From: Limnomonas spitsbergensis
Lineage: Eukaryota > Chlorophyta > Chlorophyceae > Chlamydomonadales
Assembly: GCA_037349105.1 (NCBI GenBank)
Contig: JAYJMM010000026.1
Coordinates: 930,001-994,000, forward strand
Direction of reading: 5' to 3'
Length of the DNA stretch: 64,000 nt
Of the stretch, positions 36,553 through 63,767 are shown one piece after another. A program made the position numbers and the translations under genes. A model generated the notes under the pieces. That model was not told where the DNA came from and ran no database searches. It was given only the letters and a program-made list of their open reading frames with translations. How positions within the stretch are numbered: the first letter of the stretch is position 1; every line of letters starts with the position of its first letter.

Positions 36553-39500
36553 ATGAGGGCATGTACCGCACAGCAAGCCAGTCGCGGCCATGCGGCAACT
36601 CCGAACCCCTACGCCCAGAAACTTCCTCGGATCTGTTCCTCTTCGACCAAAATCAGATGTTCCCCCAGCTCCATGCATGCTGAGAGGCAGCACCGCCTCC
36701 CTCTCTTGTTCAGCGCCAGGCTAGCACGGTTCCGGTGCCATGCACAGGTCGCCGGGGAGGATTCAAGCGGCCATGCTACAGAGGCCACAGCGGAGCTCCC
36801 ATCCGTGTCTGCTCCGCTGCCCCTGTCTGCCCCCGCAGAGCCACCTGCAGCCTCTGCCCGCATTGAAAATACCATGTCGGGCCTGGATGCGCTGTTAGGT
36901 ATCGTCCCAGAGGACAAGGCAGCCGAGGCAGCCGCCGCGGTTGCCGGTGGCAACAAGTGGCGGGCTTCGACCAGGTCTGAGGATGCGGGGGGCATGTCTA
37001 TGGGGGCGATGGAGAAGATGGCAGATGCGGAGCGGCTGCGTAACGATGCTGGGAAGAAGACGGGAGGCAGCAACATTGAGATCCAGATGCAGAAGATTGT
37101 CGAGAAGGTGTGATGCGGAATGCGTGATGATACTATGCTACACATATGTAATGCTGTAATGTGAGAAGTGAAATTGAGATTCAGATGCTGAGGATCGTCA
37201 AGATGGTGTGATGCCGCAGGATGACTAGTGTGCTATGCTGCATTGTTTGATGCCTTGATGTCACTCATGTAGTCATGTGTGATGCCAACACGCCACTTGT
37301 GTGTAATCCACTGATCCCGTTATGTGTGAAGTGCTACAAGAGAGGGCTGAGGTGGTCGTGGGCCTGAGGGGGGAGGGGTGAGGGGGCCATTGACATGCCA
37401 AGTTATCAGCCGACATGGTTGGTAAGCCTGCCTCCCTCAACCCCATGGCCCCTGAGCCTGCAACCTCGTCTCCTCTGATGCTCTGCTGTGCCTCTGCTGC
37501 TCCTCTGTTGCGCTGATAGCTTCTCCCCTGAGCTCTTTGGAGGAAGCTGGCACGTTTACCTCATTTAGGGTACCATCATTTCAGGTGCAAGTGATTTTTA
37601 GCATTAGACACTATGTATGTACGTGTGAATGTATGTCTTTTCTGCTGCCCTTCATGCGAGGAAGCTGGCTGAGCAGCAAGCTGGTATCAAAAAGGCGGAC
37701 TCGCCTGGAACGCCTGCTAAGCCGCGTTCAGATCAGGTGGGATTAAGATGAAATATTTTACTATTAAACCAAACTAGTTGTAGCAGTATACATGGCCCGC
37801 ATAACAAAACAGTATATTCGAATTGCCTTCCCTCCGCATTAACAAATGTCAGGGGCGAGGAATGGATTAAGTACTACTGGTCCTGCACTGTCACTCTCAA
37901 TTGGTGTCCATTAGGGTTTATGGACTCTGTTGTGCTTCCTCACGGTGCGTGACATTACGGTTTACGGGCAATTTATAAGGACCGCCCAAAATGCCTCGCA
38001 ATTACGGCAATTTGCTTACGGCAAAACTACAGGCCAAACCCCGGAGACGGACCGCAACTCTTTTTGGCTCGAAACCAACCCGCCAATTGACGAGAAGTTG
38101 TGATATTGGAAGTTGGACGTTGCTTTGATCATCATGATATTTTCCTTTTGGGGGTGATGCACAACAATGTTGAAGTTCCCACTTGTGAATATCCCTTAGA
38201 ATCTACTTGCGGTCCAGGATAACCGCTCGATCTTCATTGCGTGCAAGCTAAAAAAACGTACTTACGCACAATTACGTGTTTCGCCGTAATTTACCGAAAT
38301 TACTTACACAAGAAACGAATTATGGCGTCATAGCAGACGCAACAGCAACATCAGAACAAGTACATTATGGTAGTGCATATGGTAGTGTGGCATGTGTGCT
38401 TCCTTTGATTGACATGACTGATTACCGGTATGCCGAAAATCAATTTATAATTTCGTTAATTTGCAAACAATGTGGGACATATGAAACCAGTGCTGTGCTA
38501 TTGTACCATAATCCAGAAATCGGTGTACGTATTTACGGACCCTTCCTGTTAAATGTAGCTGAATTTGCCTAGAAATTTCTGTCTGACACTCAGCTACGTA
38601 ATTCAGCCATCGTAGGGACCGTAATCGGCACAGCCCTGTATGAAATGTAGCTTCATAGACCTGCGAGCCCTGCCAACCAGCAGTACGAAACATAATGAGG
38701 AATCAACCAGAATTTATACTCAAAACAATTGCCTGCTTTTGACCAAAAAATCCTCTGGAATCAGATGGTGATACAAGAAAGTATTTCGGAACACGTGTAA
38801 TATTTTGGATGTGTATAATTGTGAAGGGTCCTTGTTTCCTCGTAACTGGAGCCTTCCCTCCCCCCCAGGATGTGAACACCTTGCGCTCCTATGACGAGTT
38901 GCTCAAGTCTTTTGCTACGGCTGGTGACGGCCCATCTGACCCATTTTCTGACTTCCGCTTTTCCACCTTTTCCCACCAGGATGAGAATGCCCTGCGACGT
39001 GAGTTTGATGAGTTGCTCAAGTCCATTGCCACTCCCGGAGAAAGCCAGATGCGGGCTGTCCCTAGCAAGGAGGAGATCCAGCGGCTCAAGGACGCTGCAT
39101 TCGGGCCACTGACGTTTTGGGTCACTGAGACGCGTCCTATTCAGGTGTGTGTAGGGGTTTAGAGGTTATGGATAAGGGCACTTGATGGCAAGGCACACTC
39201 CGGGAGGTAAGGTTCAGGGGTTTAAGGTGTCAGTGGTTAAGTGAGCGGGAGGTGGGGCAGAGAGAAGGCTAGGGGGGAGGCTGTGTTGAGTGGTAAGCAT
39301 CTTGGGGCATGTTGGGTCACTCAACTGTACCATCATGTTGGGTCACTCAACTGTACCATCATGTTGGGTCACTCAACTGTACCATCATGTTGGGTCACTC
39401 AACTGTACCATCATGTTGGGTCACTCAACTGTACCATCATGATAAGTCCTCCGCATTTTCATTCCACCCCCACCACACACACGGACCCCACCGGATGCAT

Positions 39501-42500
39501 CTCCATGCACGAGGAAGATGAAACACAAACACGAGTGAGAGGAGAAAACAAGAAAAATGAGAGAGGCAGATAAAGAGGAGAGGAAAGTGCAAGGGAAAGG
39601 TTATTTATTTTCGAACCGATGAGTTAGGACATCCGCATATTGACCCCAGAGACAGGAGCTTACGCAGGCTGATATAAGGTAAGGTGTTAATCTACATGGC
39701 TGGTCTTGCTTAATACCGATACCGGTAAACCGTAGATTTGCTTTGCCCTCCCTCATAATTAACGATGTTTGGGGTTGAGGGATCCATTAGTATACCAATA
39801 CGGTATACTAATTAACCATCGCCGACGCCAGCTTTCAGTCAGAAATTAAGAGTTCTGATCGATAATTTGTCCTAAGGGCAGTATTAAAAGAAATCGTATT
39901 TCCATACCTGAGGGAAGGCAAATATAATTTACAGCATAGGCATCGGCAGTATGCTTAACATGCCCATACGATGCGCCGTATATTACAAACGGTACCTTCA
40001 GATCGCCTTGGCTATCAAATGCTCAACCTCGCGTTTCTCACTTGATTGCGAGAAAGGTGGAAGGCAGCCCTCAAGAAATATTGGTGTATCTTGCATGGAC
40101 ATTACCGTGTAGTGTTGCATGAGACATGCGTATGACGCATGGTGCATCAGTGTGTTGCTTGGGACATGCGTATGACGCATGGTGCATCAGTGTGTTGCAT
40201 GAGACATGAGTATGACGCATGGTGCATCAGTGTGTTGCTTGGGACATGCGTATGACGCATGATGCATCAGTGTGTTGCATGAGACATGAGTACGATGCAT
40301 GAGACATGAGTATGACGCATGGTGCATCAGTGTGTTGCATGAGACATGCGTATGACGCATGGTGCATCAGTGTGTTGCATGAGACATGAGTATGACGCAT
40401 GGTGCATCAGTGTGTTGCTTGGGACATGCGTATGACGCATGGTGCATCAGTGTGTTGCATGAGACATGAGTATGACGCATGGTGCATCAGTGTGTTGCAT
40501 GAGACATGCGTATGACGCATGGTGCATCAGTGTGTTGCTTGGGACATGCGTATGACGCATGGTGCATCAGTGTGTTGCTTGTGACATGCGTATGACGCAT
40601 GGTGCATCAGTGTGTTGCATGAGACATGCGTATGACGCATGGTGCATCAGTGTGTTGCTTGGGACATGCGTATGACGCATGGTGCATCAGTGTGTTGCAT
40701 GAGACATGCGTATGACGCATGGTGCATCAGTGTGTTGCATGAGACATGAGTATGACGCATGGTGCATCAGTGTGTTGCATGAGACATGCGTATGACGCAT
40801 GGTGCATCAGTGTGTTGCATGAGACATGAGTATGACGCATGGTGCATCAGTGTGTTGCTTGGGACATGCGTATGACGCATGGTGCATCAGTGTGTTGCAT
40901 GAGACATGAGTATGACGCATGGTGCATCAGTGTGTTGCTTGGGACATGCGTATGACGCATGGTGCATCAGTGTGTTGCATGAGACATGCGTATGACGCAT
41001 GGTGCATCAGTGTGTTGCTTGGGACATGCGTATGACGCATGGTGCATCAGTGTGTTGCATGAGACATGAGTATGACGCATGGTGCATCAGTGTGTTGCTT
41101 GGGACATGCGTATGAATGGCAGGATGCCAAGGACATCAAAATATCATGCATGAGGCATGAGTGCGCTACAGTGTTTCCTTTTTCGGCTACAAAGCCACCA
41201 TCAGCTGGTCGCCCCGCGGCCGTCAGAGGCCCGATTAGGACCCGAACTGGACCGGCATGTGACTGGTGGCCAAAGCTGCATGTCTGGCAACAAATTGCCC
41301 GCTGGCCGTAGGCCGGAGTGTATCTGACATGTAGCTGAGTCACGAAAAAAGAAACACTGTTGCGCTACGAGGTACATGAGCACTTTGCATGGGATGCGAC
41401 CATATGAGTTCAATGCATGGGACAGGAGTGTGCTGCATGAGGCATGAGTTTGATATATATTGTTGGAGACCCACTGTTGACCCGCTTGAAAACGTCTCCA
41501 GTGACAACATGAACACGATGACTGGGTTTGTCTTGTCTGCTAGTGTCACCACGCCCTCAGTGATGGGGAGGGTCAATCGCCACCGCCAGCACATCCACAA
41601 CTTGCCACGGCCCATGCACTTGCCATGGCCCATGCTCTTGCCATGGCCCATGCACTTACCAGAGCTCCAGCCCCAGCCTCAGCCCGGGCCTGCACCAGAG
41701 CTTGACATGTTTGTTCACTGACAGAAGCATCAAACTCTACATTGACTTGGCAAGGTGTCCCCTAAGCGCTGCACCCCGGTTGGCAGCTTCCCAGCCTCGA
41801 CACGCCGGTCTCTGGTTTAGGCTTCAACATGGGCTGGGGTAGGGTCTTATGCACTCAATGCCTCTGGTTTAATCTCATGATCTCAGCCCACTCCATCCTG
41901 TCATGCTAAGATGCATGCCCCTAATATTTTTTTGAGGGCTCATAGTCCCTCCAGCTATGAACAAGTTGGTGATAATGAAATGTCAGCCCCTTTCCACATC
42001 CAGAGGTTATATTGGGCCCCATGTGCGAGCGAACCAACAGCATGTGCAGGTGCGCATTGTGACATGCGCGGTGGATATTAAAGATGGAGCTTCTATTCCA
42101 CTTGCACGTCAAGCGACCCTGAATTTACCATCGGCCCGGTGTTACCCCCCCCCCCCCCCCGTAACAGCCCCTTTCTCCCCCTCTAACCAAGCCCATCCCC
42201 CTTGACTCCCCCCCCCTCTGCCTGGTGTGTGCAGGAAGCTGAGCGGTCCGGTCTGCTCATCCGCGGGAACCTGAGGGATGACCGCGACAAGGTCTTATCG
42301 ATCCTCTGCGAGAAGGTGGCCGAGCTATTCCCGGGAAGGTGGGAGGGTTAGGGTCAGGGGTGATGGTGGAGGGTTGAAATGAGCCAATATCTTGCCTGAA
42401 CGGAGGGTTTCAGGTTTTCAATTGGCCGAGGTATTCCCTAGAAGTGGGGGGGAGGCTGGGTGGGACAGGGAGGTTTTAATAAACAGACCAGAACCCTCTG

Positions 42501-45500
42501 CAGAAATGAGATATCGACAATTGAGAATCTGGACTGTGAACCCTGAATCTTGGGCCCTGAACCCCAAGCCTGTGAAATCCTGAACTCTGCACCCTTACAG
42601 ATATGAGGTCTTTATGGTGGAGGACGAGGATAATGAGGGCTCTGGGCCCGTGGCCCCGCCGTCCGGATCCGCTGCCGCCGCCTTTGCGCCCACCGGCAAA
42701 GCCAGGGGGCTGCTCACCGGAACGCGTGTGGCCTTCCAGATCCTCCCGGCGGAGCAGGCGCAGCCACCACAGACAGACACGGCCCGGAAGGTGGCCGCCG
42801 GTGTGCTGGGCCTACTGGTGATTGGGTCTTGTTTGCAGGTGAGAGGGAGGGGGGGGGCGCCATAGACGGACACGGTTGGAGGGTGACCGTGGGACTGCTT
42901 GGCCTGCTACTGCTTGGGTCATGTATGCAGGTGAGGGGAATCGCAGGTTCAGCCTGGCTTTATAAGGTCAGGTGAGAGGGGGAGAAGGGCATCAGGCGGG
43001 TGGCCATGGGGTTGCTGGGCTGGCTGCTGATTGGGTCATGCCTGCAGTAGAGAAGGGTCGAGGGCTAAGCTCGCGGAAGGGAAGGGCGAGCGAGTGGCAA
43101 CTGGTCAGCTGAGCCTGTTGCTGATCGGATCCTGAATGAAAGGGTCTGGGAGGTGGGCATGGCAAAGCTGGGAGTGATGATGGGCGTGGATATGGGCAAA
43201 GCTTCTCGAGCATGTGAAGATGAAGCCTCAACACTGAACCGTGAACTCTGTCGTGAACGTTGTCCCACAGCTGGCTTTACCCAAATAAGGCCCAAGTGTC
43301 CTTCCACCTAAGAACCGTGAACCCAAACCTGCCACCTAGGCCCATGTGTTCTTCCACCTATTTGCCCATGTGGAGACCTTGAACCCCAGACCCAAAACCC
43401 TTCCCTTGGCACAGGCCTGTGACATCCCTCAGTTGTCACTTGCTGTTTCCACCGCCGCAGCTGGCGCTGGCCTCTAACATCAGCCAGCTCCCTGAGGAGA
43501 CGTTGGCGTGGCTGTCCAACCCGGACAACCTGGACAGTGATATGGTGCCACCGGGGCTGGAGGGATGGGATCCAACATCGTACATTGAAACAGCGCTTCC
43601 TACTTTGTCGGGTCTTCTGGCAGTGCAGGTAGGTGGGGTGAGAGGGGGTGAAGGGGACAACCTGGACAGTGACATGAGGCCACCGGGGCTGGAGGGATGG
43701 GACCTGACAACATGTATTGAGATGGTGCTGCTGACTCTGTCAGGCCCCTAGGTCTTTGTTGGGGCACGAGGGAAGGCAGATATTCAGGTGGCTGGGGGGA
43801 GATGTGATGCCACCGGGTATGGCGGGATGGGGCCTGGCAACAATGGTTGAGACAGCACCGCCCACTCTTTGCTGCCAGAGTCAGTGGGTGTGGGCAAGGG
43901 TTTGTGCGACAAGGGGGGGGGCAGGGGGCAGCTGAAGCCTGTCCAATCCGCTCAGCCAGAATGCGCCATGATGCCAGTGGGTCTGGAGGGAAAACATCTT
44001 ATGACGTATTTTGAGGCAGCGCTGCTCACATTGTCGGGCTGCTGGCAGTGCAGGTTGGGAGTGATGGTCTAGGGGAGGGGGGGGGGCAGTGCAGGTTGGG
44101 AGTGATGGTCTAGGGGAGGGGGGGGGGGTGCAGGTTGGTTGTGATGGTCTAGGGGAGGGGGGGGGCAGTGCAGGTTAGGAGTGATGGTCTTAGGGGAAGG
44201 GGGGATGCAGTGCAGGTGTGGAGTAGATGGGGGTGGCGGTCTAGGGGGCAGGGGAGCTGGAGGGACAGAACACGACAACTTGTGTGGATACTTTACCGGG
44301 ATGGAAGGTCAAGCCTTGGTCTATTTACTGGGGTCAGGTTTAGCATGCGATTATTAACTGGGGGTTACGGGTTCAGTCCAGGATATTGCTTTTGGGGGAG
44401 GGGGTAGTAGTTATCTGGGACGGATGACTGGGTTTGCATGTTAAGCCTAACACTGTTTCAGGTCTGGGAATGTTTCGTGTGAGGTAAGGATATGAGTTTT
44501 GACTTTGACTGTTTGCTTGGGGTGTAGGGTTTAGACTTTGGGTATTCACAGGACGGGGTAAGGTTAAGACGGGGACTATTCGTGTGGGGGGGGTAAGTCG
44601 GGGGCTGTTTACTGGAGACTGTGTCTGGCTGCATTTATGGCTAATGAAAGCACACTCTGGCCTCTGCTGCTGAGTTCGGTTCTAGCCTTGTAGCCGAGCA
44701 GCTCTTACAGCCTTTCGCCTTTAAAGAGCCGTGCCGTGCTTTCACGAATCGCAGCACTTTATTTAGGGTTTAGGGTTTAGGTCAATGCGCACATGTTTTG
44801 ACCGTCAAGCCTGCATGTTGTTCCGCCCAACAGGTTGCGCATGAGGCTGGGCATCGTATTGCCGCCGGCCTCCGTGGGGTGAAACTTGGCCCTTCATTCT
44901 TTGTGCCGTACAGCCAGGTGCGCCCAGCACCCTGACCTAATCTTGTAGGTTTGAGCTCGCTCGCATATAAGATTTATGCATGTGGAAATAACCTAATCAC
45001 CACGTGTTATGGTCGCTACCGGTATAGGCTCCGCTTTTATTTTATTCACGAGTATGGATGAAGGGGGGGACACTTTGTATTGGTGAGTCCGACCTGGTAT
45101 GCACAAAATAATTTTTGCGTTGCAAAGTTGGCTTTATTAACAATAGTCTTATTCAATTTACAAAGGAAAAACCCAACCATTAAGGCTGTTGAGGTCAGAG
45201 TCAAAGTTCGTTGGATACTGCCATGCACCAAAAGCACTAGCGTAGATTGCGATAGACTTCGCTAAAAAAATATCATCATTGGCCTGCGCGGTCATAGCTG
45301 CGCAGTACTAATAATTCAAAAGTCGCCGCTGTGCGGAGTGTCAGTTAGGTTTTCAAACAACTATTTTGGGGGTGCGCGTGAGAGGGGGGCAAAAACAAAA
45401 TTAAATCGACCCCAGCCCTCTTTTTTTGTAGAGCTTAACGAGAGCGTTCCATAGCCGTTTTTTAAATGTGTTTTGGCCCAGGGGGGTGGGAGATATGGGG

Positions 45501-48500
45501 GGGCAAAGTTGGGGGTGGGTGGGTGGGTGGTCCCCCAAAAATCCAATATTTGTTTTTGTTTCCAAACTTCGTATCTTCTTTTCTGGAGGTCTGTTGAGGC
45601 TGGCAGTGGCACCTGTGTTCTCCTTGCCAACATGAGTCCAGTTACATCCTAAAATGTGGCTTGAATTACCACATGACCCCCTGCCCCCCCACACTGAGGG
45701 TTTGGCTCCATTGGACACACCCCGAACCATTCTTAGTTGACGTTTGGCATGTCATCACCTAACGAATTGATATATACCAGTAGAAGCGCCTTGACGAGCT
45801 GATCAAAAAACACCCCTTACATGCCCTGTCATTTTGAATTTTGACTGAGATCTTTGAATTTCAATGGGTTCCGGAGGCGGGGGTGGGGGGGTGGTAGGCT
45901 CGTGGGGTGCTCGTTTTAGGGGGGGGATGGGGTCTCTGGCTTTTTCTTTTGCCCCCCCTCAGGTGCGCGCTATGGAGGAAAAAATATCCCAAGATATCCC
46001 CCCAAAAATATCAAAAAATATCAAAAAACAACGCGCGCTAGCGCGCGACTGTTTGATTCGACATCTGTCAAGTCAGCCTTATGCCAGTCCCTGTAGCGAA
46101 GCTCGATCCTGGGGGCAGAAACGGGTGCTGACGTCAGCTGACGTTTCAGGGCCCCAACAGCTACACGTTTCCTGAGGCCAGGAACCGGCCAGGGTGGTTT
46201 TCTCCAGAGGGTTCAGTACTGGAACCGGCGGAGGAGGAGGATGACTATGCCGAGTATTTCTGACCGTGTACTGTCCTTCCAAGCATCAAAGCCTTTCTAC
46301 TGAAATCTACTGTTTTGGCTGAAAGCGCTGCGTGGACGAAAATTAAAATGATTATAACTGATGCGCGATGTTAAATTACAGTACCTGCTGCGCGACGTAA
46401 AATCAAAATAAAACTTCGCCGCTGCGCGACCGTCTTTTAACTACTGTACTTCTTAAGCTGCGCGATAAAAATAAATTGATTTCTGGGGGTTGTGTGGACC
46501 CTATGGCGATTTACGGTATTGATTCGCTGTCGAGAGGGCACCGTTTAAAGGTTTGATGAAAAAGGATTTCCCATTGCCACCAGGACCCTGAATTCTTCAA
46601 AGCCTCGGTAACGCGGGTTGTTTCCATGCAGCAGCGATCGCCTTCAAAGCTGCTGCCTGGTCAGGGGACTTCAAAAGCAAATTAATATCTGTTGGAGCCC
46701 CGAAACGTCAGCAGTCGTCAGCACCCGTCTCTGCCCCCAGGATCGAGCTTCGCAACTGGGACCAGTACAGGGAATTGTCCCCTTCTGTCCTTATGATGTT
46801 GTCCGCTAGTTCATTCGATAACTTTTGATGTATATCGAGCGATTTGGCGTGGACGGGGGCGGCAAAAACCGTCCCTTCACTGTGATAAAGAGCCTTGCGA
46901 ATTGCGATGATCTCTTGTACATAGATTCAAATGTCGCCACTCTTCCTCCCTCTCACGCCTCGTGGAACAGGGCTGGAGGAACCTCTGGAGGACCTTTCGA
47001 AAACTTTCGTGTTTTTCCTCCACCCTCGTTTCCTCCATCAATCAGAATCAGGCTGAAAGGATCTCTGGACAGATGTCGAATCAAAGAGTCTTGCACCAGC
47101 ACGCGATTTTTTTTATTATTTGCGGTTTTTATTCATAGCGCGCACCCCTAAAATAATTGTTTCGGCCCCTGACTGACACTCTGCCAAGCGGCGGTTTTTG
47201 AATTCATATTAGCGCGTAGCACACTCCGCGCAGGCTAAAAATAATTAATTATTAGCGAAATCAAACCCGTTTTACGGCAATCCAAACAACAAATCATGAT
47301 GTGCAGGTTGGTTCTTTCGGGGCCATCACCCCCTTCACGAGCATTCTCAAGAACCGGTTGGAGCTGTGGGATGTGGCAGCGGCCGGTCCGTTGGGCGGTG
47401 CGCTGGCGTCGGCCGCCCTGCTGGCGATCGGACTGGCACAGGGTGGTGGTGCTGTGCCTGACCCTGTGGCTGCGTCGGCGGATGTTGGGGCGGTGGTGGA
47501 CACAGCTAGCCACCTGTTGGTCGCTGTCCCCTCAGGGCTGTTCCAGGTCTGGTTTGGGGCGAGGGGGGGGGGGGGTGCTGGTCTGATCCGGGGGGGGGGC
47601 GGGCGGCGAGATTGTGGTGGGAGTGCGTTAGGAGTGCGGCGGGAGTGCGTTGGGAGTGCGTTCGGATTGCGGTGGAATTGCGGTGGGAGTGCGGCGGATG
47701 GGGTATCAGATCAGGAGGATGTTGGCTTTGTGGCATGCCTGTTGTTAGGGTAGTACGCTCCTCATATCTCTGTCCACTCCTCCCACTGGCGGAGAGAATT
47801 TGGCAGGAAGGCATTGCTCATACCTCCTAAGTTTTCGATGCATGACCAGCGTAACTCCGCACCTCAATAGACGCTCTGCTCCTTCTCCTGACCGGGATCC
47901 CTGCTGCTCGGCAACACTGCTCGCGCCCCCATCCTTCCTCACTTCTCTGTCGCCCTCTATTGGCAGGGATCATTGTTGCTGCGCGGCATTGCTTGTTCGT
48001 TCTCCAACGAGATGGTAGTGCAGTGATGTTTTCACCCCTGCTGGTCATGCCACCCTCCTGATATCTCTAACCCTCCACCCATGGACAGGGATCGCTGTTG
48101 CTGGGCGGTATTGCTCGCGCGGTGTTGGGCGAGTCGGCGCTGAGGGGGAGCATGGTTTTGGTCTCACCCCTAGTCATCGCTGGATGGTGTGGCCTCATCA
48201 CCTCAGCTCTCAATGCATTGCCTGTGGGCTGCCTAGACGGAGGCAGGATGGTACAGGTGGGAGTGCGGGGGGAGGGGCAGTGTGTAGCAGACTAGCAGCC
48301 GCATAGATGGAGCCCATTCTGTATGAGTTGTGTTGTTGCGTTTGTGGTTGTTGCAACGTTCAAGTTATTATGGGGGACCCGCTGATGACTGACTGACGGT
48401 GCTCTTTGTGAACCCTGAGTATGTTGTGACCACACTCTGAACCATAGCTCTGTATACCAGCCTCCAGTCCACCACCCTCACTGTCACTATCCTCATTCTC

Positions 48501-49337
48501 ACCCTTCCTTGTGCCGCAGTGCGCTTGCCCTCACCTCCTCCTTAGCCTATATGGCTACCTCCATTATGCCATTAAAGTTGTTGCGGCCCCCTGTATGTAT
48601 GTTACCTCTTATGTATGCAGGCTGCTAAGGGCTGCCAGGCATGTGCCCTCACCTCCCTGCCTCACAGACCGCCTCCATCCTCCCCCCAATCTGACATGAC
48701 CCCTGTTCCAATCTCCTGCCATTTCCCCATGCAGGCCGCTTACGGCCGCCAGGCGCTAGCCCTTACCTCCTTCTTCGTTTATCTGGGATTGGGATTGGGC
48801 CTCCTGGGGAGCACATTGGCCCTCCCGTTTGGGCTGTACGTCATTATCTGCCAGGTATGGACACTTCCCAGATAACCCCTACCTTGGGCCTGCTTGGGAG
48901 CTCATTAGCCCTCCTGCATGAATTATCCCTCATCATCTGCTCAGTGGGGGCAGCCAGGGGTTAAATGAGGACGCGTGTGTCATAAAACCCGGGCATGATT
49001 GCGACTGGAAATTTGAGACGCTGCTTGTCAACACCCATTTGTGTGTTTGATATTCGAGCCACGCTCATCCATGTTAGATGTCTTGGTCCATCCTGGGTCC
49101 ATCCCCATTCGTCCATCCCCCTATGTCCATCCCCATTTGTGTATCTCCTTACCCTTTCCTTGTGTGGGAATGTAGCGTACCTCAGAGAAGCACATCCGGG
49201 ACAGCGTCACTCCGACGGGCAATGGGCGGGAGGTGGCCACGCTGGCCGCAATCGCGGCGGCCGTCCTCGTGCTGCTCCCGCTAGCTCCGGAGCTTGCCGA
49301 CTCGCTGGGTGTGGGGGAGACAAACCCCTTCCTGTGA
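36553..49337 (+). CDS. EGY1: EGY1-like plastid site-2 (M50) metalloprotease
   Basis: Eleven exons join in phase: 36553-37107, 37665-37736, 38869-39144, 42235-42338, 42601-42838, 43461-43628, 44834-44917, 47307-47546, 48089-48256, 48735-48854, 49176-49337 (TGA); about 728 residues. Land-plant EGY1 is a thylakoid intramembrane zinc protease needed for chloroplast development, and the family cleaves substrates within the membrane. Residues 1-65 are Ser/Arg-rich, like a transit peptide. Then come an acidic linker, LKDAAFGPLTFWVTE, a GLLIRGNLR block, YEVFMVEDEDNEG, the zinc motif VAHEAGH (HExxH) at about residue 552, VGSFGAITPF, AAAGPLGG, LVIAGWCGL, the second motif NALPVGCLDGGR, the block ALPFGLYVIICQ, and an acidic C-terminus. 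All catalytic residues are present. Exon 3 may start at 38980 instead. Introns hold minisatellites, a MITE, a 2-kb inverted-repeat element and many exon-edge echoes. Confidence 0.9.
37155..37215 (+). repeat. Downstream echo of EGY1 exon 1 end
   Basis: AAATTGAGATTCAGATGCTG and AGGATCGTCAAGATGGTGTGATG repeat the exon end and donor ACATTGAGATCCAGATGCAG and AAGATTGTCGAGAAGGTGTGATG (37072-37114), about 85 bp apart, with similar following intron sequence. Confidence 0.9.
38869..38979 (+). repeat. In-frame duplicated start of EGY1 exon 3
   Basis: CCCAG|GATGTGAACACCTTGCGCTC and its neighbour CACCAG|GATGAGAATGCCCTGCGACG (from 38980) are two copies of the same acceptor and exon start. They encode DVNTLRSYDELLKSFAT and DENALRREFDELLKSIAT. 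Both are phase 0 and the stretch between is open, so either acceptor gives a viable protein, differing by 37 residues. Confidence 0.85.
39307..39440 (+). repeat. 26-bp tandem repeat, five perfect copies
   Basis: CATGTTGGGTCACTCAACTG + TACCAT is repeated five times almost without change, in EGY1 intron 3. The lack of divergence implies recent expansion. Confidence 0.95.
39735..39835 (+). repeat. Dispersed repeat (copy 1)
   Basis: TTGCTTTGCCCTCCCTCATA + ATTAACGATGTTTGGGGTTG + AGGGATCCAT matches 63921-64000 with few changes, and both end in GC(T/C)GACGCCA. A decayed third copy may lie near 37818-37875. Confidence 0.75.
40100..41115 (+). repeat. 40-bp minisatellite in EGY1 intron 3
   Basis: There are about 25 copies of TGTGTTGCATGAGACATGAG + TATGACGCATGGTGCATCAG. 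Two alternative cores, GCATGAGACATG and GCTTGGGACATG, are interspersed, giving a partial 80-bp higher-order pattern. The array stops just before a MITE at 41168. Confidence 0.95.
41168..41360 (+). mobile_element. 193-bp MITE with terminal inverted repeats
   Basis: The ends ACAGTGTTTCCTTTTTCG and CGAAAAAAGAAACACTGT are near-perfect inverted repeats. The element is flanked by the duplicated target TGCGCT (41162-41167 and 41361-41366). It has no coding capacity and a GC-rich interior. Related copies lie at 63245-63431 and, inverted, at 29061-29253. The superfamily is not certain. Confidence 0.85.
41596..41665 (+). repeat. Short 24-bp repeat
   Basis: About three copies of CTTGCCATGGCCCATGCACT-type units (CTTGCCACGGCCCATGCA, CTTGCCATGGCCCATGCT, CTTGCCATGGCCCATGCA). 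Confidence 0.7.
42866..43137 (+). repeat. Three downstream echoes of EGY1 exon 5 end
   Basis: The true exon end near 42788-42838 reads GCTGGGCCTACTGGTGATTG + GGTCTTGTTTGCAG|GTGAG. Copies follow at about 42866-42936 (TGCTACTGCTTGGGTCATGT + ATGCAGGTGAG), 42990-43050 (GGCTGCTGATTGGGTCATGC + CTGCAGTAGAG) and 43090-43137 (CTGTTGCTGATCGGATCCTG). They decay with distance from the exon. Confidence 0.9.
43659..44053 (+). repeat. Three downstream echoes of EGY1 exon 6
   Basis: GACAACCTGGACAGTGACAT + GAGGCCACCGGGGCTGGAGG repeats exon 6 (43519-43568) closely. Weaker copies follow at 43805-43880 (GATGCCACCGGGTATGGCGG) and 43968-44053 (ATGCCAGTGGGTCTGGAGGG), the last ending with GGCAGTGCAG|GTTGGG like the real donor. 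Confidence 0.92.
44042..44222 (+). repeat. Minisatellite whose unit contains an exon end and splice donor
   Basis: There are four to five copies of about 40-55 bp: GCAGTGCAGGTTGGGAGTGA + TGGTCTAGGGGAGGGGGGG. The first ten bases are the last ten of EGY1 exon 6 (GCAGTGCAG|GT). Poly-G lengths vary. This links exon-edge echoes to minisatellite formation. Confidence 0.9.
46032..46047. repeat. Perfect 16-bp palindrome
   Basis: CGCGCGCTAGCGCGCG, preceded by AAAAATATC repeats, lies inside the 2-kb inverted-repeat element. Confidence 0.85.
46083..46765. repeat. Internal inverted repeat of about 70 bp
   Basis: GCGAAGCTCGATCCTGGGGG + CAGAAACGGGTGCTGACG (46096-46133) returns in reverse complement at 46712-46753 (CGTCAGCACCCGTCTCTGCC + CCCAGGATCGAGCTTCGC). 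Both copies adjoin a GACGTTTC(A/G)GGGC(C/T)CCAAC block. Confidence 0.8.
46152..46263 (+). pseudogene. Captured C-terminal exon fragment
   Basis: After an acceptor-like GACGTTTCAG at 46150 the frame reads Gly-Pro-Asn-Ser-Tyr-Thr-Phe-Pro-Glu-Ala-Arg, then PGWFSPEGSVLEPAEEEDDY and a stop after AEYF. The composition and acidic tail look like the last exon of a real protein, but it does not belong to the EGY1 frame. It lies inside the inverted-repeat element, so it may be a gene piece picked up by a transposon. The source gene is unknown. Confidence 0.45.
47775..48012 (+). repeat. Three upstream echoes of EGY1 exon 9 start
   Basis: The true junction is GGACAGGGATCGCTGTTGCT + GGGCGGTATTGCTCGCGC (48083-48120). 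Earlier copies: GGCAGGGATCATTGTTGCTG + CGCGGCATTGCTTGTTC (47962-48000), CCGGGATCCCTGCTGCTCGG + CAACACTGCTCGCGC (47890-47924) and a weaker GGCAGGAAGGCATTGCTCAT (47802). The pyrimidine tract (TCTCTGTC..CCTC) is duplicated with them. Confidence 0.88.
48508..48665 (+). repeat. Upstream echoes of EGY1 exon 10 start
   Basis: TATGCAGGCTGCTAAGGGCT + GCCAGGCATGTGCCCTCACCTCC (48614-48656) and the weaker GCCGCAGTGCGCTTGCCCTC + ACCTCCTCC (48516-48543) parallel the true CATGCAGGCCGCTTACGGCC + GCCAGGCGCTAGCCCTTACCTCC (48729-48771). Confidence 0.85.
48882..48945 (+). repeat. Downstream echo of EGY1 exon 10 end
   Basis: TTGGGCCTGCTTGGGAGCTC + ATTAGCCCTCCTGCATG, then TCATCATCTGCTCAG, repeat the exon end TTGGGCCTCCTGGGGAGCAC + ATTGGCCCTCCCGTTTG, TCATTATCTGCCAG. 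Exon 10 therefore has echoes on both sides. Confidence 0.85.
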
Positions 49338-50829: not shown

Positions 50830-52479
50830 ATGCGCCTTTTGGAAAGCATACACGATAACAACGGCTCTCGATCCGCAGGAACCAACGTCAGCCATTTGAA
50901 TTCTCGATCGTCTCAGAACCTCCCAGGGAGCCGGGTCAGACTTGTGTCACGACCACGATCGCGCCAGCTCTGCGTCTCAGCAAGGTCGGCAGCACTCGGC
51001 TGATCCAACGGATCTCCCAGTAGCAGTCGCCCGCTGCTTCAATAACGCCCTCATCGATTTCAGCCCTGCATCTACATTTTTAATGTCCTTATCCCTTTAC
51101 AGGGCGGAAAGTGACAGGAGTGACAGCTTCTTCTCCGGGTTCGTGCTAGGCGGAGTCGTCTTTGGAGCGCTGGGGTTCCTGCTGGCACCCCAGGTGGGAC
51201 CCTCAGCTCAACAGCAAGCATGCCAAGGACACCAGCACTATAATAGGCTGCTGTTCAGGCACAAGCCATGTTGCTTACAGGCACACATTTCTGATCCAAA
51301 GCTCGCTCATGCCTGCCATGCCACCTAGTTGCGGGTGTGGCCTGCGAACTCGCCAGAGGGCACTTAGCAAGAGGTGCTATCCCAGGCATTGCCGTAGGGG
51401 ATAAAAGGCCGATGCTGGTCAAGTTGTCGAAGAGCTCAACCAAGTGAGGGATACCAGATAACCTCAGTCTTTCTGCCAAGCCCTGTCCTTCCCAGCCTTG
51501 AGAATAACAAAATACACCTACTTAAAGACCGGTGTTTCTTTACCTGCCACCCTCATTAACCTTGCTTCCAGATTTCTAAGGCACTGCTGAGCGATGATCA
51601 GCGGCTGCGGATGCCTCGCTTCCTAGAGGACGAGGTCAAAGACCCTGAACAGACAAAACAGGACCTGTTTGACAAGATCGCGCAGCTAAACGCCTCGATC
51701 GATGACGTCTCGAGCAAGCTCAACACTGCAGGTATGAGCGTCCTGATAGATCAGCCTTTCCAGGGATGGGAGCTCGACGAGAGTTCAACAGGATTTGTTT
51801 TGCCAAATAGCGCAGCTCAATGCCTCAATTGATGACATCACAAGCAAGCTTGGCAGTGTTGGGCTCTGACACCCTAAACGGGCTTGGGTGTCACGTTAAG
51901 TGGTCTGCTACATTCTAAAACTGAAATACTGACTGAAGAAATGAAAAATCGTGTAACAAGGCCGACCGTCATGGCCGAAAATTGCCCTACCCTGAAGCTG
52001 GTGAGGGCGCCTGATGGTGGTGGCATCATTCCTCCACTTCTTACGCCTGGGTTATCCAATTCAGCTACACCGCAGCCTATATTGGAGGGGGGCTCATGCA
52101 GCAAGCCTGTTTATCGGGTCATCCTGACTGCCGGTCAAGGTCTGCTCCCAATTGGTCAAATCATCCCTGACTAGCGGCTTGCTGAAGGTGGTCTGCTTTG
52201 CACGCTCATGTACACGGCTAATCGCAACAGCTGAGATAAGCCTGACCCTTGTGTCCCTCAAGCACATTATAGTGTTTTCACCCTTCCGGCCAAAGCTTGC
52301 TTGGCAGCCTTGCACCTAGCAGCCTTGCTTCTGCATCTGCTTGGGTAGGCTGTGCTTGACAGCTCGCCCTGCTCAATGCACATTTACAATTTTGAGTATG
52401 AAAAGTTGTCTCCAATGCTTGCCCCGCAGGTGGTGGTGCCGTTTCGCCGGTCGCGGAGGCCATGAACATGAAGTCTTAA
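50830..52479 (+). CDS. Small plastid membrane protein, AT1G42960-like
   Basis: Exons 50830-50984, 51103-51193, 51572-51731 and 52430-52479 (TAA) join with matching phases into about 151 residues. Exon 1 gives a Ser/Arg-rich leader ending RQLCVSAR, typical of a plastid transit peptide (Val-x-Ala before the cut). Exon 2 is one membrane segment, SFFSGFVLGGVVFGALGFLL, then APQ. Exon 3 begins ISKALL and carries RFLEDE and the conserved coiled stretch KIAQLNASIDDVSSKL. This order (segment, APQ-I, basic/acidic linker, N-x-KI-x-QLN-x-AID-x-VS) is that of land-plant proteins such as Arabidopsis AT1G42960, reported from the chloroplast inner envelope; function unknown. It lies 1.5 kb downstream of EGY1 on the same strand. 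The start is the ATG nearest the leader; an upstream one is possible. Confidence 0.7.
51785..51868 (+). repeat. Downstream echo of exon 3 of the AT1G42960-like gene
   Basis: AGCGCAGCTCAATGCCTCAA + TTGATGACATCACAAGCAAGCT repeats CGCGCAGCTAAACGCCTCGA + TCGATGACGTCTCGAGCAAGCT (51679-51720). The copy still encodes AQLNASIDDITSKL before it decays. Confidence 0.9.
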
Positions 52480-52565
52480 GCGATAGAGTTGTGGCAGTGA
52501 CAGCACATGTTGTTCCTAACGGCAGCCTTCTGCTGGCTCACACAAGGGACCTCAAAGCAGCGCAG

Positions 52566-53789: not shown

Positions 53790-53975
53790 CTAGTGCCTGG
53801 CAGCCAGTCAGGATTTTGCCCATTTACAAGAAGGCAACCCCCTTGACCGAAGTAATTATCGACCCATCGCCATCACTTGTGTGTTGTACCGGCTGTATGC
53901 TAGCATGCTCACTACCATCACTGATGAGTGCGCTCGCTTGCACAGTCACATCCCTCCTGAGCCTCCCATCCTTGC
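53790..53975 (+). pseudogene. Reverse-transcriptase finger-region fragment of a LINE
   Basis: In two frames the strand encodes WQPVRILPIYKKATP, then after a one-base shift NYRPIAITCVLYRLYASMLT. This is the W-x-P...P-x-YKKG...NYRPI start of non-LTR reverse transcriptases. It is broken by a frameshift and ends abruptly where the minus-strand LINE below begins. Confidence 0.7.
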
Positions 53976-55400: not shown

Positions 55401-55779
55401 TTTGCAGACAGGGCAGACCCTGGGGCAGACTGGGAACTGTCAAGGCGGATCAGAAGACATAACGGCAGGATATGAGGGTTTGCGAGATAGCAAGCAAATG
55501 TGAAGAAGAGATTAAAAGTTTCATTGCGGGCTCCATGTGAACGCAAAAGTGACTGAAATTCGAATCGGGCTCTGACTGTGTTCGAACCCAACCCAGATTT
55601 CGCTCCCGAGTGTGAACGGGCCCTAAACGAAAGCGGACTTATACCTTCTGAATGTCTCCCCTACTTCTTCCTTGGATGGCAATGACACTGAATTGAATTC
55701 ACCTCCGATCACGCAATTTTGCTGGTTTGGCCAGCGTGCTAGGTCCTGCTATGCAAGGGGTTTAAATGCGGAGAATCTA

Positions 55780-58700: not shown

Positions 58701-61700
58701 CCCTTTTAAAAAGTGTGCTGCTAATATCACTGAACGATTCTTGTGCTTGTCTCCTGATTGGATCCTGCTGTTGGTCTCCTGAGAAGGTCCTGCTGGTCCG
58801 TACTTGCCTCAGGAAGCAGTTTCCGCAGATTTGGGGTTATGCGCTTTCCTATAAACCCTGTCATTTTGATCCAACCTTCCACATTGAACATGGATCAGTA
58901 TTCCACCAAAGTACACTATTGACCCACCTTCAGCGCTGACCTCTGACTCCTGACGTCCTCTGTAGGAATCTGTGTGTGGAGTGCAGCAAGCCTGGTTTTA
59001 AGCTCACTAACTTTGAGGTAAGCATTGAAGCTGCGAGTCAGGCGACATGCATCCATTGCAGGACCGTTTGTGCTGCTGCATGGCGGTTTCTGTTGTTGCA
59101 TGATTGGCATGACGGTTAGTGTTCTTGTCGCTGGACGGTTATTGCTGTTGCATGCGTGATATCACAGTTCGTGCTGCTGGATTAGTGGAATGACTATCAG
59201 CTTTATTTACGAGGGTCCCTATTGTCGTATGAAGGGCATGTCAGTTATTGCAGCTGCATGACGGTTACTGTTGTTGCGTGAGTGCAATAACGACCGCTGT
59301 TGTAACATGATAGTGTCGTTGCCGGCGGTCCGTAACTCGCCGATGTATTATGTTGCTCAACTCCAGGCTTCCTGTCTGGTGCTCATTCCTGATGACTGAC
59401 GTTTTGTTGCTCCCTTTGAGGGCTTGGGCCTGTCCTTCTGTCCCACTGAATATGGAGTTGTTGATTCTTGCACCCGTCTAGGACAAGGGTCGGATGTGTC
59501 CCACTTGCAAGGGTGCCTATGAGATGCAGAAGTCAAGGGGTCCCAAAAGGAAGCCAAGCACCCTGGACTTTGATGACCTAAACGAGGACAACGGAACGGC
59601 CATTCATCGGGTAGGATCTGCCCCTGGTGGTTGTCTCTGGGGGGGGAGGCTTACAAGCTTTGACCTGTCAAGGAGCGTACCCCCCCTGCCCTGAAAGATG
59701 AACCTTGAACCCTGTCCCAGGGGTTCCCAGGGGAGGAAAGAGGAAAGAGAGAGCCAGGGGGGTCCCAGGGGAGAAAAGAGGAAAGAGAGAGCCAGGGGGG
59801 TCCCAGGGGAGGAAAGAGGAAAGAGAGAGCCAGGGGGGTCCCAGGGGAGGAAAGAGGAAAGAGAGAGCCAGGGGGGTCCCAGGGGAGAAAAGAGGTAAGG
59901 GAGAGCAGGGGGGTCCCAGGGGAGAAAAGAAGAAAGAGAGAGCCAGGGGTTCCCAGGGGAGGAAAGAGGAAAGAGAGAGCCAGGGGGTCCCAGGGGAGGA
60001 AAGAGGAAAGAGAGAGCCAGGGGGGTCCCAGGGGAGGAAAGAGGAAAGAGAGAGCCAGGGGGGTCCCAGGGGAGGAAAGAGGAAAGAGAGAGCCAGGGGG
60101 GTCCCAGGGGAGAAAAGAGGAAAGAGAGAGCCAGGGGGTCCCAGGGGAGGAAAGAGGAAAGAGAGAGCCAGGGGGGTCCCAGGGGAGGAAAGAGGAAAGA
60201 GAGAGCCAGGGGGTCCCAGGGGAGGAAAGAGGAAAGAGAGAGCCAGGGGGGTCCCAGGGGAGAAAAGAGGAAAGAGAGAGCCAGGGGGGTCCCAGGGGAG
60301 AAAAGAGGAAAGAGAGAGCCAGGGGGTCCCAGGGGAGGAAAGAGGAAAGAGAGAGCCAGGGGGGTCCCAGGGGAGAAAAGAGGAAAGAGAGAGCCAGGGG
60401 GGTCCCAGGGGAGAAAAGAGGAAAGAGAGAGCCAGGGGGTCCCAGGGGAGGAAAGAGGAAAGAGAGAGCCAGGGGGTCCCAGGGGAGAAAAGAGGAAAGA
60501 GAGAGCCAGTGGGTTCCCAGGGGGGGAAAGAGGTTGAAAGGAGAGAAAGCCCCCGTTGAGCCTCAAACCCAGGGTTGCCGGCAACAAGTGTTTATTCTAG
60601 TGTGCAAAATACCACCTTAAACAGGCCGCTCAACAGCCACCATTAGGCCGATGGGGGTAAGACCCAGGGGCAACAGCCCCCATAAGGCCTGAAGTCCAGG
60701 GCTGTTTCATTCTTTGTTTGAGTGCGCATTATATGATATTTGGCAGTGTGCTGGGCAGCGACCCCTGGGCTGAAGGAGCCAATGCATTGAATTCATGTGC
60801 TGCTTCCGCGTTTTTTTAGTGTGCACCAGACTCAATGATACACCGAGCACATGGGAGTCAGACAGTCAGACTGCCTTCCGATGTGGCACAAGCAGAGCAA
60901 CGGAGCCTGAGCAAGGGCACAGCAGTACACAAAGTTAATGTTGTTTGTCTGATGAGCTTTGCAATTCTTCAAGCAAAGAAACAGTTGTTTTAGTGTGCTC
61001 CTGGCCACCTCTGGCAGGCCGCTGAGCAGCTTGGTGCAACATGCACCTTGCTGCACTAAGCCAACATGGCCGTACACCATGTTGTGGCTGAACTGAAGCT
61101 GAGGCGTTCACACATAGACACTGCAGGCTGTAGGCTGCGGCCAACTACCCGCGCATGGCTTCATCGCCACCCTGACGACCATGAAATGTCAAATTGTGGT
61201 TATTTGCCGTGCTGTGAACATCTCTTTCGGCGCTCATTTCCAGCTGTTCGGCTGAATACATCAATTAACGGCCGGCAATGAATGATGTTTTGACCCTGCC
61301 TACTGGTGCTCTGTTTGCGGCATGCTTTCCCCTACAGGCTGTCCTCTACATTGCAGTACATGGTACTGCTGGTCTGGTCAGGACCAGTTATCTATGTCAT
61401 ATTTTTTCACAAACCTTGGCGGCAAGGAGCTGCATGGCCTCAGATGACAAGCGGCCACATCTTAACAATGGATTGGCTGCCTCACCTGTCTCTCGCTCAG
61501 GGGAAGTGCGACCTACGCCTGACGTCCTGACTTTGTGTGTGCACCTACGCTCGCCTGCTGTATATGTCATTTGTTTTCTCCTCCCCCTGACAGGTCTGTG
61601 CCAGGAGGCGAGCCAGTGTGCCTCCCAGGTGGCTGCGCGTGCCTGATCACTCACGTCTGCGCCCCGCCGACTTCATGATTCCGCTACCTAACCGACTACA

Positions 61701-63767
61701 AATAAGACAGTTGCCTCCTTCCTTTCAGGTCAATGACAGGCGGCCTGTCAGTGTGCCTCCTGAGGACCCTGAGGGCCGGAGCAAGTACACCCCGGTTCCG
61801 CCGGCCACAAGATTCCGCGTCTCCCCACCCGCCTCGGCCACTGGACAGCGGGCTGGAGGCGCCCTCGGCCCTGCTGTGACGGGACCCGGAGCTACCCGCA
61901 ATGACTCCGGCCAGCTGTCGATAGCGATGCGCGCTGCTGCTGCGGGCGCTGCGGGCAGCACCGCCGCATTCCTCGGCCAGGAGGCGGCAGATGCGCCAGC
62001 AACAGCTCGGAGCGGCGGCTCACACGGACTGCCTGTGCGTGTAGGCGACAGCTCGGCTGAGGTCGCCACCACCACCACATCCGATGCTCTCGTTGTTGCC
62101 GCTGCTGCTCCTGCTGCCGTTCAAGAAGCGTCGCAGCCGCGGAGGGCGATGACTAGACAGAAGAGCGTTGTCCAGGAGGGACAGTGCGCGGTGAGTGGGC
62201 AGTGGTGTGGACATCCCAAAACCCTTCAACCTGGGTTCAATCACCCAGACACCAAGGGACAATGCATGGCCCTTCAAGGGGCATCATGTATCATGCCATA
62301 TATCATGTCTAAGATCGGCAGCAGTGTGGACTTACAAACGATCCTGACTGCAAGAGTCAGAGGTTCAAGGGAGCGAGAACTTGTAAACGATGAGTTACTC
62401 CTTGCAGGAGTTAATAAATGTTATTCCCTACGGTTGGGGTGCGAGAAAGCTTTTATCATCGAAGGTATGCAGGATATGATCATGATGTACATTATGTACA
62501 TCGTAATGATCATGATGTACATTATAATTTGGTTAAATGCCGTCGAAAACATCCCGAACATCGTCACTGCAGACTGACCTGAAATATGGCGTTTCCGCTA
62601 TTTCAACGCGACGCGCAAGCAGGCGTTCTTGTCCAATTGTGTTATCATGTTAGATTGCCCCCCAAACCAAGAAAACACGCCGATCCCTTCATCGCACGCT
62701 AATGGCACGCAATGGCCTGAGTTGCGGATTTTCGTGAAGGCGAACCATGACATTGGTGAGGACAAGGAAGTTCAGCATGAAGCGGTTGCACTATACTAAA
62801 CCCTGATTGACTTGAGGCCCTACAATAGGAGTCCCAATGGTTTGCCTGGGAGTCCTGGTTGGACTGAAATAATAAGGATCTAGGCTCAACCTACAAATTC
62901 TGTTTTCATAGTTTTGAGGACTTCGCTTTTCATATGGGAGAATTTAGCTTTGTATTCTGAATGTGCAAAGTAAGCTGAATCCTTTCCCCCAATCTAGTTA
63001 GCCTCTGGCCATTTTTATGACTTCATGTTATGCCACAATGTAATTGTTTTACCGGTAAACATGTGCTATACTTAACATCGCCGGGGCATGTTCACTGTAT
63101 TGCCGTTGTTCATTATTATATTGCCGATGATGACGGTATTGTGTTCTTTCCCTGGCTCTGTTGCCCGGCCTCTGCCCTACAGGGTTGCCGCTCTGCTCCC
63201 CTGCGCTGTTGCTCTGGTCCTGTACACTGCGCCCAATCTTCACCAGTGTTTCCTTTTTTGGCTACGAGTCCACCTTTTGCCCGCGGCCGCCAAAGGACCG
63301 GTCAAGACCAAACCAGGACTGGTTCACGCCTGGTGCCCAAGGCAGTTTGGCTGGCCACCATTGAGGCCACCTCTGGCCAGGAGCCAGGATGAAGCTGACA
63401 TGTAGCTGAGTCATGCAAACAAAAACTGATATTCACCGCATAAGCGCCAAACCCCGCACCTTCAACCCTCCATCCCCCCTGTGCAGGGCACTGCCAATAG
63501 GCTCTCCTGCAGCTATGAAGCAGAGGATGTGGCAGAGCAGGTATTCACGTCCATACGTGTCGTATGTTACTGTGTATTGCTGACATGCCGCATTGCCACC
63601 CCCCTGTGCAGAGCACTGCCATTACGCTGTCCTCCAGCTCAGAGGTGGAGAACGAGGCAAACCTGATGCTGCATGGTGCCAGCGGAGGGCGCCGGAGCGA
63701 GCGCTTGCCAAGGAGCGGAAACAGCAGGGACGAGGATGAGGGAAGAAGGGATGCTGACGTATTCAAG
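55780..63767 (+). CDS. Zinc-binding protein with Ala/Ser-rich region (3' end missing)
   Basis: Supported exons: 55780-55998 (first in-frame ATG; Lys/Glu-rich, ends APETQ), 58966-59017, 59482-59610, 61729-62190, 63487-63540 and/or 63612-63767. The phases of the last four join perfectly. The first exon needs at least one further exon between 56.0 and 58.9 kb to reach phase 2 (57484-57597 is a candidate). The joined peptide has LCVECSKPGFKLTNFE then DKGRMCPTCKGAYEMQKSRG: C-x2-C-x16-C-x2-C, a zinc-ribbon or the last half of a RING-type finger. Then follow RGPKRKPSTLDFDDLNED and 154 residues rich in Ala, Pro, Ser and Thr. A nuclear or ubiquitin-related role is possible but unproven. The gene runs beyond 64 kb. 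Confidence 0.5.
58380..58575 (+). repeat. 25-bp tandem repeat, fading outward
   Basis: There are seven or so units of GTAGATCCTGTTGCCTGTTT + CACGA. Weaker related words (GATCC(T/G)GT(T/C)GTT) extend to about 58800. It lies in the intron before the exon at 58966. Confidence 0.85.
59712..60535 (+). repeat. 37/38-bp purine-rich minisatellite
   Basis: There are about 22 copies of TCCCAGGGGAGGAAAGAGGA + AAGAGAGAGCCAGGGGGG, with GGAG/GAGA alternation and 5 or 6 terminal Gs. The strand is nearly all purine and can form triplex or G-rich structures. It starts about 100 bp after the donor of the exon ending at 59610. The long Arg/Glu/Gly and minus-strand Ser/Leu/Pro frames are not genes. Confidence 0.95.
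60590..61590 (+). other. Intron portion without a recognised feature
   Basis: GCAACATGCACCTTG and GGCCGCTGAGCAGC-type words resemble the MITE interior, but no ends are found. Reading frames of 60-120 codons here have no family resemblance. Confidence 0.4.
61590..61640 (+). repeat. Upstream echo of the exon at 61729
   Basis: ACAGGTCTGTGCCAGGAGGC + GAGCCAGTGTGCCTCCCAGG parallels TCAGGTCAATGACAGGCGGC + CTGTCAGTGTGCCTCCTGAGG at the real acceptor 133 bp downstream. Both have AG|GT(C). Confidence 0.85.
62466..62525 (+). repeat. Short duplicated palindromic block
   Basis: ATGATCATGATGTACATTAT is present twice (62476-62495 and 62506-62525) separated by GTACATCGTA. ATGATCAT and TGTACA are themselves palindromes. 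Intronic. Confidence 0.8.
63245..63431 (+). mobile_element. MITE copy with target-site duplication
   Basis: It starts AGTGTTTCCTTTTTTGGCTAC and ends GTAGCTGAGTCATGCAAACA + AAAACTGATA, as in the 41168-41360 copy. It is flanked by the duplicated target TTCACC (63239-63244 and 63432-63437). The 3' terminus has diverged. Confidence 0.75.
63487..63540 (+). repeat. Duplicated exon start, possibly an alternative exon
   Basis: GTGCAGGGCACTGCCAATAG + GCTCTCCTGCAGCTATGAAG and GTGCAGAGCACTGCCATTAC + GCTGTCCTCCAGCTCAGAGG (63606-63645) are two copies of one acceptor and exon start. The first is 54 bp, phase 0/0, and ends with a donor-like GAGCAG|GTATTC, so it could be spliced in as 18 residues or skipped. 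Confidence 0.75.

Follow-up and report, generated by a model that had tools for sequence, protein, structure and literature searches.

The introns of this green alga hold echoes, decayed copies of the ends of neighbouring exons, and these echoes are a real and widespread feature of the genome. They are most probably the remnants of pervasive, untargeted duplication of short stretches of local DNA in direct orientation, with a median period of ~ 130 bp, that selection has subsequently filtered. Thus they look like a new case of a known type of event and not like a process specific to splicing. The window, by which we mean the whole 64,000-nucleotide stretch that was analysed (C26:930001-994000), belongs to an assembly of 260.2 Mb in 124 contigs.

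The nearest named relatives of the window proteins come from chlamydomonadalean green algae (Chlamydomonas sp. UWO 241, Sanguina, Haematococcus, Volvox and C. eustigma). The main plus-strand gene encodes a predicted EGY-type M50 protease, with exons E3–E11 extending from 38980 to 49340. Over its full length, the protein spliced from E3–E11 matches an algal EGY/M50 homologue at 60%, with gaps at 0 of the 8 splice junctions and, judged by this comparison, the predicted exon model E3–E11 is sound and the spliced EGY model intact. The spliced homologue alignment places E3 at 38980-39144, E4 at 42235-42338, E6 at 43461..43628, E9 at 48089..48256 and E10 at 48735..48854, all on the plus strand. E5 (42601..42838, plus strand), with the donor GTGAGA, has gap-free junctions in the homologue alignment. 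The true start of E8 is 47307; it was entered 2 bp early, at 47305, in the edge scans, and no E8 echo was counted. A candidate first exon (36553-37107, plus strand) is defined by its open frame, and this exon and E2 are putative parts of the EGY gene. The second gene, which encodes a conserved small protein whose homologues carry PF27515, includes an exon at 51572-51731 on the plus strand. The third model (candidate exons 58966-59018 and 59481-59610) and the fourth model (candidate exons 61727-62191 and 63599-63767, plus strand) consist of open frames only, and a Pfam search of both gave no match. An Rfam search gave no match at the gathering score. Together, the four gene models contain 18 candidate exons, and the 36 edges of these exons were tested in the window. 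The EGY gene and the neighbouring PF27515-type gene (window 38980-52478) have the Chlamydomonas eustigma homologues CEUSTIGMA_g5405 and g5417, both on 617,303-bp contigs, which suggests that the gene order is conserved.

Three kinds of sequence were aligned with each exon end, of which up to 100 bp was used: the adjoining 700-bp flank, the reverse complement of that flank, and 22-32 flanks per edge from a distance of over 3.5 kb. Arrays of at least four copies were masked beforehand. An echo was defined by a score of at least 16 that was also at least 3 above that of every compared flank. BLAST self-comparison caught several echoes but missed others; thus, scoring was performed by Smith-Waterman alignment together with diagonal scans. 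Echoes were found at 11 of the 36 edges, belonging to 10 of the 18 candidate exons and to three of the four gene models. The edges concerned are the downstream ends of 36553-37107, E4 (weak, 16 versus 12), E5, E6, E10 and 51572-51731, and the upstream ends of E3, E9, E10, 61727-62191 and 63599-63767. No edge of E2, E7, E8 or E11 reached the threshold, nor did those of two exons in the second gene, and the third model, with its pair of candidate exons, had an echo at 0 of 4 edges. When the other EGY introns alone served for comparison, the donor side of E8 came out slightly ahead (16 versus 13) but failed in the test with flanks more than 3.5 kb away. In the same restricted comparison the E10 acceptor echo (22) scored below the best other EGY intron (29), which we take to be the one across E10 that holds this exon's other echo. 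The first-pass annotation had described copies both upstream and downstream of exons, one to three at each, and this description holds: the repeats are direct, lie on both sides and number up to three per edge. Its count of at least twelve exons was overstated, as 10 were found, and its extension to every plus-strand gene fails on the third model.

Seventeen echoes on the 10 exons were listed in the window, all in direct orientation on the plus strand and distributed over donor and acceptor sides, with no edge exceeding three copies. None of the 17 spans a complete exon. The ungapped alignments cross the splice junction in nine of the 17 and end before it in the other eight, such that the proposal that the copies comprise an exon end together with its splice site is borne out for about half of them. 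The first E5 echo (42878..42938; offset 92, identity 0.77) contains the exon end and donor, with 53 bp of exon and 8 bp of intron, and is followed by two further copies of the exon end at 42999..43056 (offset 209, identity 0.74) and 43094..43157 (offset 303, identity 0.67). The first E6 echo (43655..43744) is 90 bp long, with an offset of 132 and an identity of 0.79, and its ungapped alignment ends 16 bp before the exon end; the other two are located at 43792..43866 (offset 262, identity 0.67) and 43968..44038 (offset 426, identity 0.70). A 41-bp tandem array of 4.6 copies, beginning GGCAGTGCAGGT, occupies 44044..44230 of the plus strand and by eye resembles the E6 end and donor. Upstream of E9, a copy of the acceptor and exon start lies at 47959..47993 (offset 122, identity 0.83) and a second copy of the exon start at 47890..47926 (offset 194, identity 0.78). 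E10 is flanked on both sides, by a copy of its acceptor and start at 48615..48656 (identity 0.79), a second copy of its start region at 48513..48554 (identity 0.76) and a downstream copy of its end at 48884..48940 (identity 0.75). The remaining echoes are single: the start region of E3 upstream at 38892..38932, the end and donor of E4 downstream at 42423..42452 (weak), the end and donor of the first exon downstream at 37173..37214 (identity 0.86; the exon itself is assigned by open frame), and a downstream echo of exon 51572-51731 at 51787..51850. Two more lie upstream of candidate exons known by open frame only, with the start and acceptor of 61727-62191 at 61586..61625 and the start of 63599-63767 at 63474..63534.

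The echoes recur elsewhere in the genome. Exon matches numbered 139 for the kinesin motor family, with 64 in 20 sampled loci and the other 75 in loci left out, and 72 for the chaperonin family, with 44 in sampled loci and the other 28 in loci left out. Of the 117 exon cores compared, namely 64 from kinesins, 44 from chaperonins and 9 from the EGY protease, 32 are accompanied by echoes, with 19 upstream and 16 downstream, and at least one echo is present in 12 of the 27 kinesin and chaperonin loci by the edge criterion. The comparison of adjacent with non-adjacent exon and intron pairs, named beforehand in the first-pass annotation as the one that could refute it, was run on kinesin genes picked irrespective of echoes, and adjacency held. 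At z > 6, 17 of 128 comparisons of kinesin exon cores with their own 1.5-kb flanks gave a match, versus 2 of 3200 with the flanks of other genes and 0 of 128 with the reverse complement of the own flanks. Two to seven echoes are present at 21 exon edges. Among the 89 pairs from these edges, which are not independent of one another, 10 are ties and the nearer copy is the more similar in 62 of the 79 untied pairs; the decay with distance noted earlier is therefore confirmed and agrees with repeated rounds of duplication on or close to the junction. Two loci illustrate such arrays. At locus L008, an exon end and its donor recur in seven echoes at 59-bp steps (array 3421-3886), each unit holding the exon end and GTGAGG. 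At locus L021, an acceptor and exon start recur at steps of ~ 111 bp with identities of 0.96, 0.93, 0.83, 0.77 and 0.72.

Exon edges, however, are not detectably different in this respect from non-coding DNA in general, and the view that splice junctions are special is not supported. A partner beyond the edge was present at 15 of 126 kinesin and 11 of 86 chaperonin exon edges, one exon per family having been dropped from the edge count because it was masked, versus 151 of 1600 and 56 of 560 non-coding pseudo-edges in the same loci, respectively. Combined, this amounts to 26/212 exon edges versus 207/2160 pseudo-edges (odds ratio (OR) 1.32, p 0.23). Six random 5-kb loci yielded a partner at 80 of 580 points, and their addition brings the comparison to 26/212 versus 287/2740 (p 0.42). 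Masking of arrays of at least three copies gives 25/210 versus 175/2160 (OR 1.53, p 0.068). On a dense grid of pseudo-edges, the ratio of edges to pseudo-edges is 1.16, with a bootstrap range over loci of 0.67-1.74, or 1.30 (0.74-1.99) with arrays of at least three copies masked. Inclusion of the window raises the contrast to 32/230 versus 253/2960 (OR 1.73, p 0.011), and the EGY gene alone, at 6 of 18 exon edges versus 46 of 800 pseudo-edges, is far above background, but the echoes already noticed in the window were the reason for its choice. Matches to the own flank at z > 6 occurred for 90 of 384 random non-exon segments versus 8 of 128 exons; in this comparison the standard deviation entering z was given a lower bound and new samples were drawn, which accounts for an exon count of 8/128 rather than 17/128. 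With arrays of at least three copies masked, the counts are 30/360 and 5/120, respectively.

The duplications that touch exons also resemble the others. The 325.5 kb sampled contain 344 duplication events, of which 50 touch exons and 294 do not. The two groups agree in copy length (KS p 0.87) and in identity (medians 0.81 and 0.80, p 0.24), with copies typically ~ 80% identical, and their median offsets are 135 and 126.5 (p 0.054 overall, 0.35 for offsets of at least 60). The proposal that introns here lengthen by repeated duplication of splice junctions thus divides in two. Local DNA duplications do occur repeatedly, visibly cross the junction in about half of the window cases and lengthen introns, but an aim at splice junctions does not emerge, as the ratio of 1.16 does not differ significantly from that of non-coding points and the copies are alike in length and identity. 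A mild excess at junctions may nevertheless exist.

Coverage by local duplicates (score 20) falls from the edges of exons towards their interiors. In 20-bp steps from the edge, coverage of kinesin exon cores is 0.141, 0.119, 0.087, 0.028, 0.010 and 0.000, versus 0.118 for non-coding sequence; raising the threshold to 24 leaves the kinesin profile unchanged in shape. The corresponding chaperonin values are 0.102, 0.105, 0.063, 0.037, 0.004 and 0.000, with 0.086 outside the exons within 150 bp and 0.209 further away. Coverage is 0.177 in the random loci and 0.050 in window 1-36000; the EGY exons reach 0.224, compared with 0.061 elsewhere in that half of the window. One dinucleotide shuffle per kinesin locus gave 0 matches of score at least 22, the level at which shuffles were counted, versus 4433 in the real sequences. 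We infer that selection causes the interior depletion, which is expected if exon-internal duplications are selected out while junction-crossing ones are harmless. A genome-wide process can therefore look specific to exon edges once selection has cleared the exon-internal events.

Mismatches between exon and echo amount to 77/587, 73/585 and 146/586 at the three codon positions (0.131, 0.125 and 0.249), and stops occur in 8 of 571 echo codons. This pattern fits a neutral echo next to a constrained exon, for which simulation gave mismatches of 0.17, 0.18 and 0.27, respectively. One true paralogous exon exhibits a steeper tilt (8/35, 4/35 and 18/34).

Local repeats in the loci other than the window are nearly all direct, with 301 direct versus 13 inverted. 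Seventy-four high-identity non-coding events have offsets of at most 400; in 42 of these the copy fills the whole period, as in a tandem duplication, in nine it does so partly, and 23 look spaced. Among 47 exon-touching events of all identities, nine fill the whole period, seven do so partly and 31 fall below 0.6. A possible reason for this low proportion is that the intron half of each duplicate, in which neither partner is constrained, is lost sooner. Untargeted tandem duplication was simulated with constrained exons and yielded ratios of edges to pseudo-edges of 0.73-0.89, or 0.45 when half of the events at junctions were taken as lost. Simulated edges had a partner at a rate of 0.053-0.057, less than half of the 0.123 observed, which together with the simulated ratio leaves room for a small junction excess. 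With units of up to 400 bp the simulated exon interior was not emptied (0.068 beyond 80 bp), and with units of 40-150 bp it was emptied in part (0.029 and 0.020). Since long units did not clear the interior, selection against duplications that take in larger shares of an exon, or short primary units, must be assumed.

The most probable account of these data is as follows. Short direct duplications would arise throughout the genome without any aim at splice junctions. Where such a duplication crosses a junction, one copy would stay joined to the rest of the exon, and the second copy with its splice site would come to lie within the intron, where it would be neutral and decay. Repeated rounds would build arrays whose outermost copies are the oldest. 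Selection would remove duplications internal to an exon and those that add a whole spliceable exon, such that only exon edges would show echoes, and copies derived from exons would remain recognisable longest because their exon partner is conserved. Slippage, unequal exchange and synthesis-dependent repair that copies nearby DNA are candidate molecular steps, indistinguishable here. In an alternative account, transcription or splicing would make junctions hot spots for duplication, for example through R-loops at donors or breaks at the compositional steps between exon and intron, and introns would grow preferentially from their ends. The excess in the window EGY gene, the odds ratios of 1.32 to 1.53 in families picked irrespective of echoes (1.73 with the window) and an observed ratio above that of the untargeted simulation all point in this direction. 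Without the window, however, the excess is not significant even under the stricter masking, the bootstrap range spans the simulated ratio, random loci have partners as often, and the sizes and identities of exon-touching duplications are like the background; we therefore consider such targeting unlikely. A weaker form, in which junctions are mild hot spots of at most about two-fold and a junction-centred duplication ratchet contributes to intron length and yields ready-made surplus splice sites from which new introns and exons could arise, is a tentative proposal and also rather improbable.

A role of the echoes in the regulation of splicing, as exons retained in an alternative, mutually exclusive or decoy capacity, is very unlikely. 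Some echoes do retain a splice site, as in the 59-bp array of L008, and mismatches are in excess at third positions, but the ~ 2:1 mismatch ratio fits constraint on one partner only, stops are present in the echo codons, identity drops with distance, and no window echo amounts to a whole exon. A similarly low probability attaches to error or coincidence. The genome is rich in tandem arrays that are hard to assemble; nonetheless, copies of ~ 80% identity are too divergent to be artefacts of read overlap, and the shuffles speak against chance similarity, such that either origin is highly improbable. Introners are known in some algae, and an RNA-mediated or mobile origin, from introner-like elements or reverse-transcribed pieces of intron or exon, was considered accordingly. 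Such an origin is extremely unlikely. The hallmark of introners, alike copies across many unrelated introns, was not seen among the pairs compared, where similarity was confined to the adjacent flank apart from the 2 matches in 3200 non-adjacent pairs; moreover, nine of the 17 window echoes run through the exon-intron junction as genomic DNA, and alike duplications occur away from exons.

Several known systems come close to the pattern seen here. The first-pass annotation knew of no description of such a pattern, but duplications that span exon-intron boundaries are known from amphioxus as 'mirage' minisatellites. In the available part of that account (PMC3087553), the genes Adh3, BflGb6 and BflGb9, the last two encoding globins, carry tandem duplications across intron-exon boundaries at the 5' or 3' side; the units are 10-160 bp long, many but not all copies contain AG/GT, the BflGb6 units are 81-100% identical, and RT-PCR suggests that splicing is normal. 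Like the mirages as described there, the algal units cross the exon-intron boundary (nine of 17 in the window, and the units of L008 and L021) and lie as head-to-tail copies at either boundary, as the upstream and downstream counts and the edges with two to seven echoes attest, although whole-period contiguity holds for only nine of the 47 exon-touching events. A further mark of mirages is copy number that varies between haplotypes or tissues; the algal data cover a single assembly. Unlike that account, so far as its available part goes, the present case concerns a green alga and not a cephalochordate, and the frequency was counted (32 of 117 exon cores) and set against a non-coding background.

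In potato RdRp, an intron was gained through a tandem duplication that crosses an intron-exon boundary, according to the portion of the report at hand, which cites the Rogers model and Gao & Lynch 2009 (PMC4974935). There, as in the alga, the duplicate holds the intron end and exon start with their splice signals, but a new intron was made, whereas in the alga only introns with decayed copies are seen. Repair-mediated duplication in vertebrates captures proximal DNA, with 824 closely linked events in human, four partial exon/intron donors and two duplicated exons without coding constraint in the accessible text of the study (PMC2671141). The algal copies, 344 events in the 325.5 kb sampled, are likewise short and local and include partial exon and intron pieces, but those from loci other than the window are nearly all direct, whereas one human exon copy in that text is inverted. 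A spaced insert with filler, microhomology or a deletion at its breakpoint would suit repair-mediated copying; among the 74 high-identity non-coding events, 23 look spaced and 42 are full tandem copies. No earlier report of such echoes in green algae was found in the literature accessible without most subscription papers. As far as these searches go, the novelty lies in the lineage, in the frequency that was measured and in the comparison with background, and the boundary-spanning duplication itself is known from amphioxus.

If local duplication occurs at such a frequency, surplus splice sites would accompany the genuine ones in many genes at any moment. They would provide a source, open to measurement, from which introns could lengthen or be gained and exons be created, and they would be liable to mislead gene prediction. 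As the matched control in non-coding DNA indicates, selection by itself can give a general mutational process an exon-specific appearance. Core-Reinhardtinia algae have conspicuously long introns, for which the available part of one study considers an ancient driver likely and names no mechanism (PMC8226300). Local duplication is a testable candidate for intron length in lineages of this kind.

The window contains several other repeats and open frames. Large tandem arrays occupy 15739-21947, 10805-12134, 24998-25841, 32121-33136, 40112-41115 and 59717-60533, and several of them are open in many frames and produce long spurious ORFs. Arrays of at least four copies make up ~ 27% of window 1-36000 and 16% of the six random 5-kb loci. 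The intron between E7 and E8 of the EGY gene contains a ~ 680-bp element (46087-46762) whose 77-nt terminal inverted repeats are 90% complementary; an open frame within it (~ 46150-46263) resembles a last exon by eye and is perhaps a captured piece of a gene. Three related dispersed copies, ~ 62-71% identical, are located at 7466-7902, 34713-34940 and 53959-54333. The frame 54035-54724 on the minus strand (229 residues, with an end that appears Cys-rich by eye) has the look of a worn retroelement and gave no match in Pfam. The frame 14575-15012 matches the HET domain, better known in fungi, just under the cutoff (20.5 versus 22.5 bits). A pair of short repeats at 41169-41355 and 63244-63426 is 70% identical, and its ends look inverted by eye, in the manner of a MITE.
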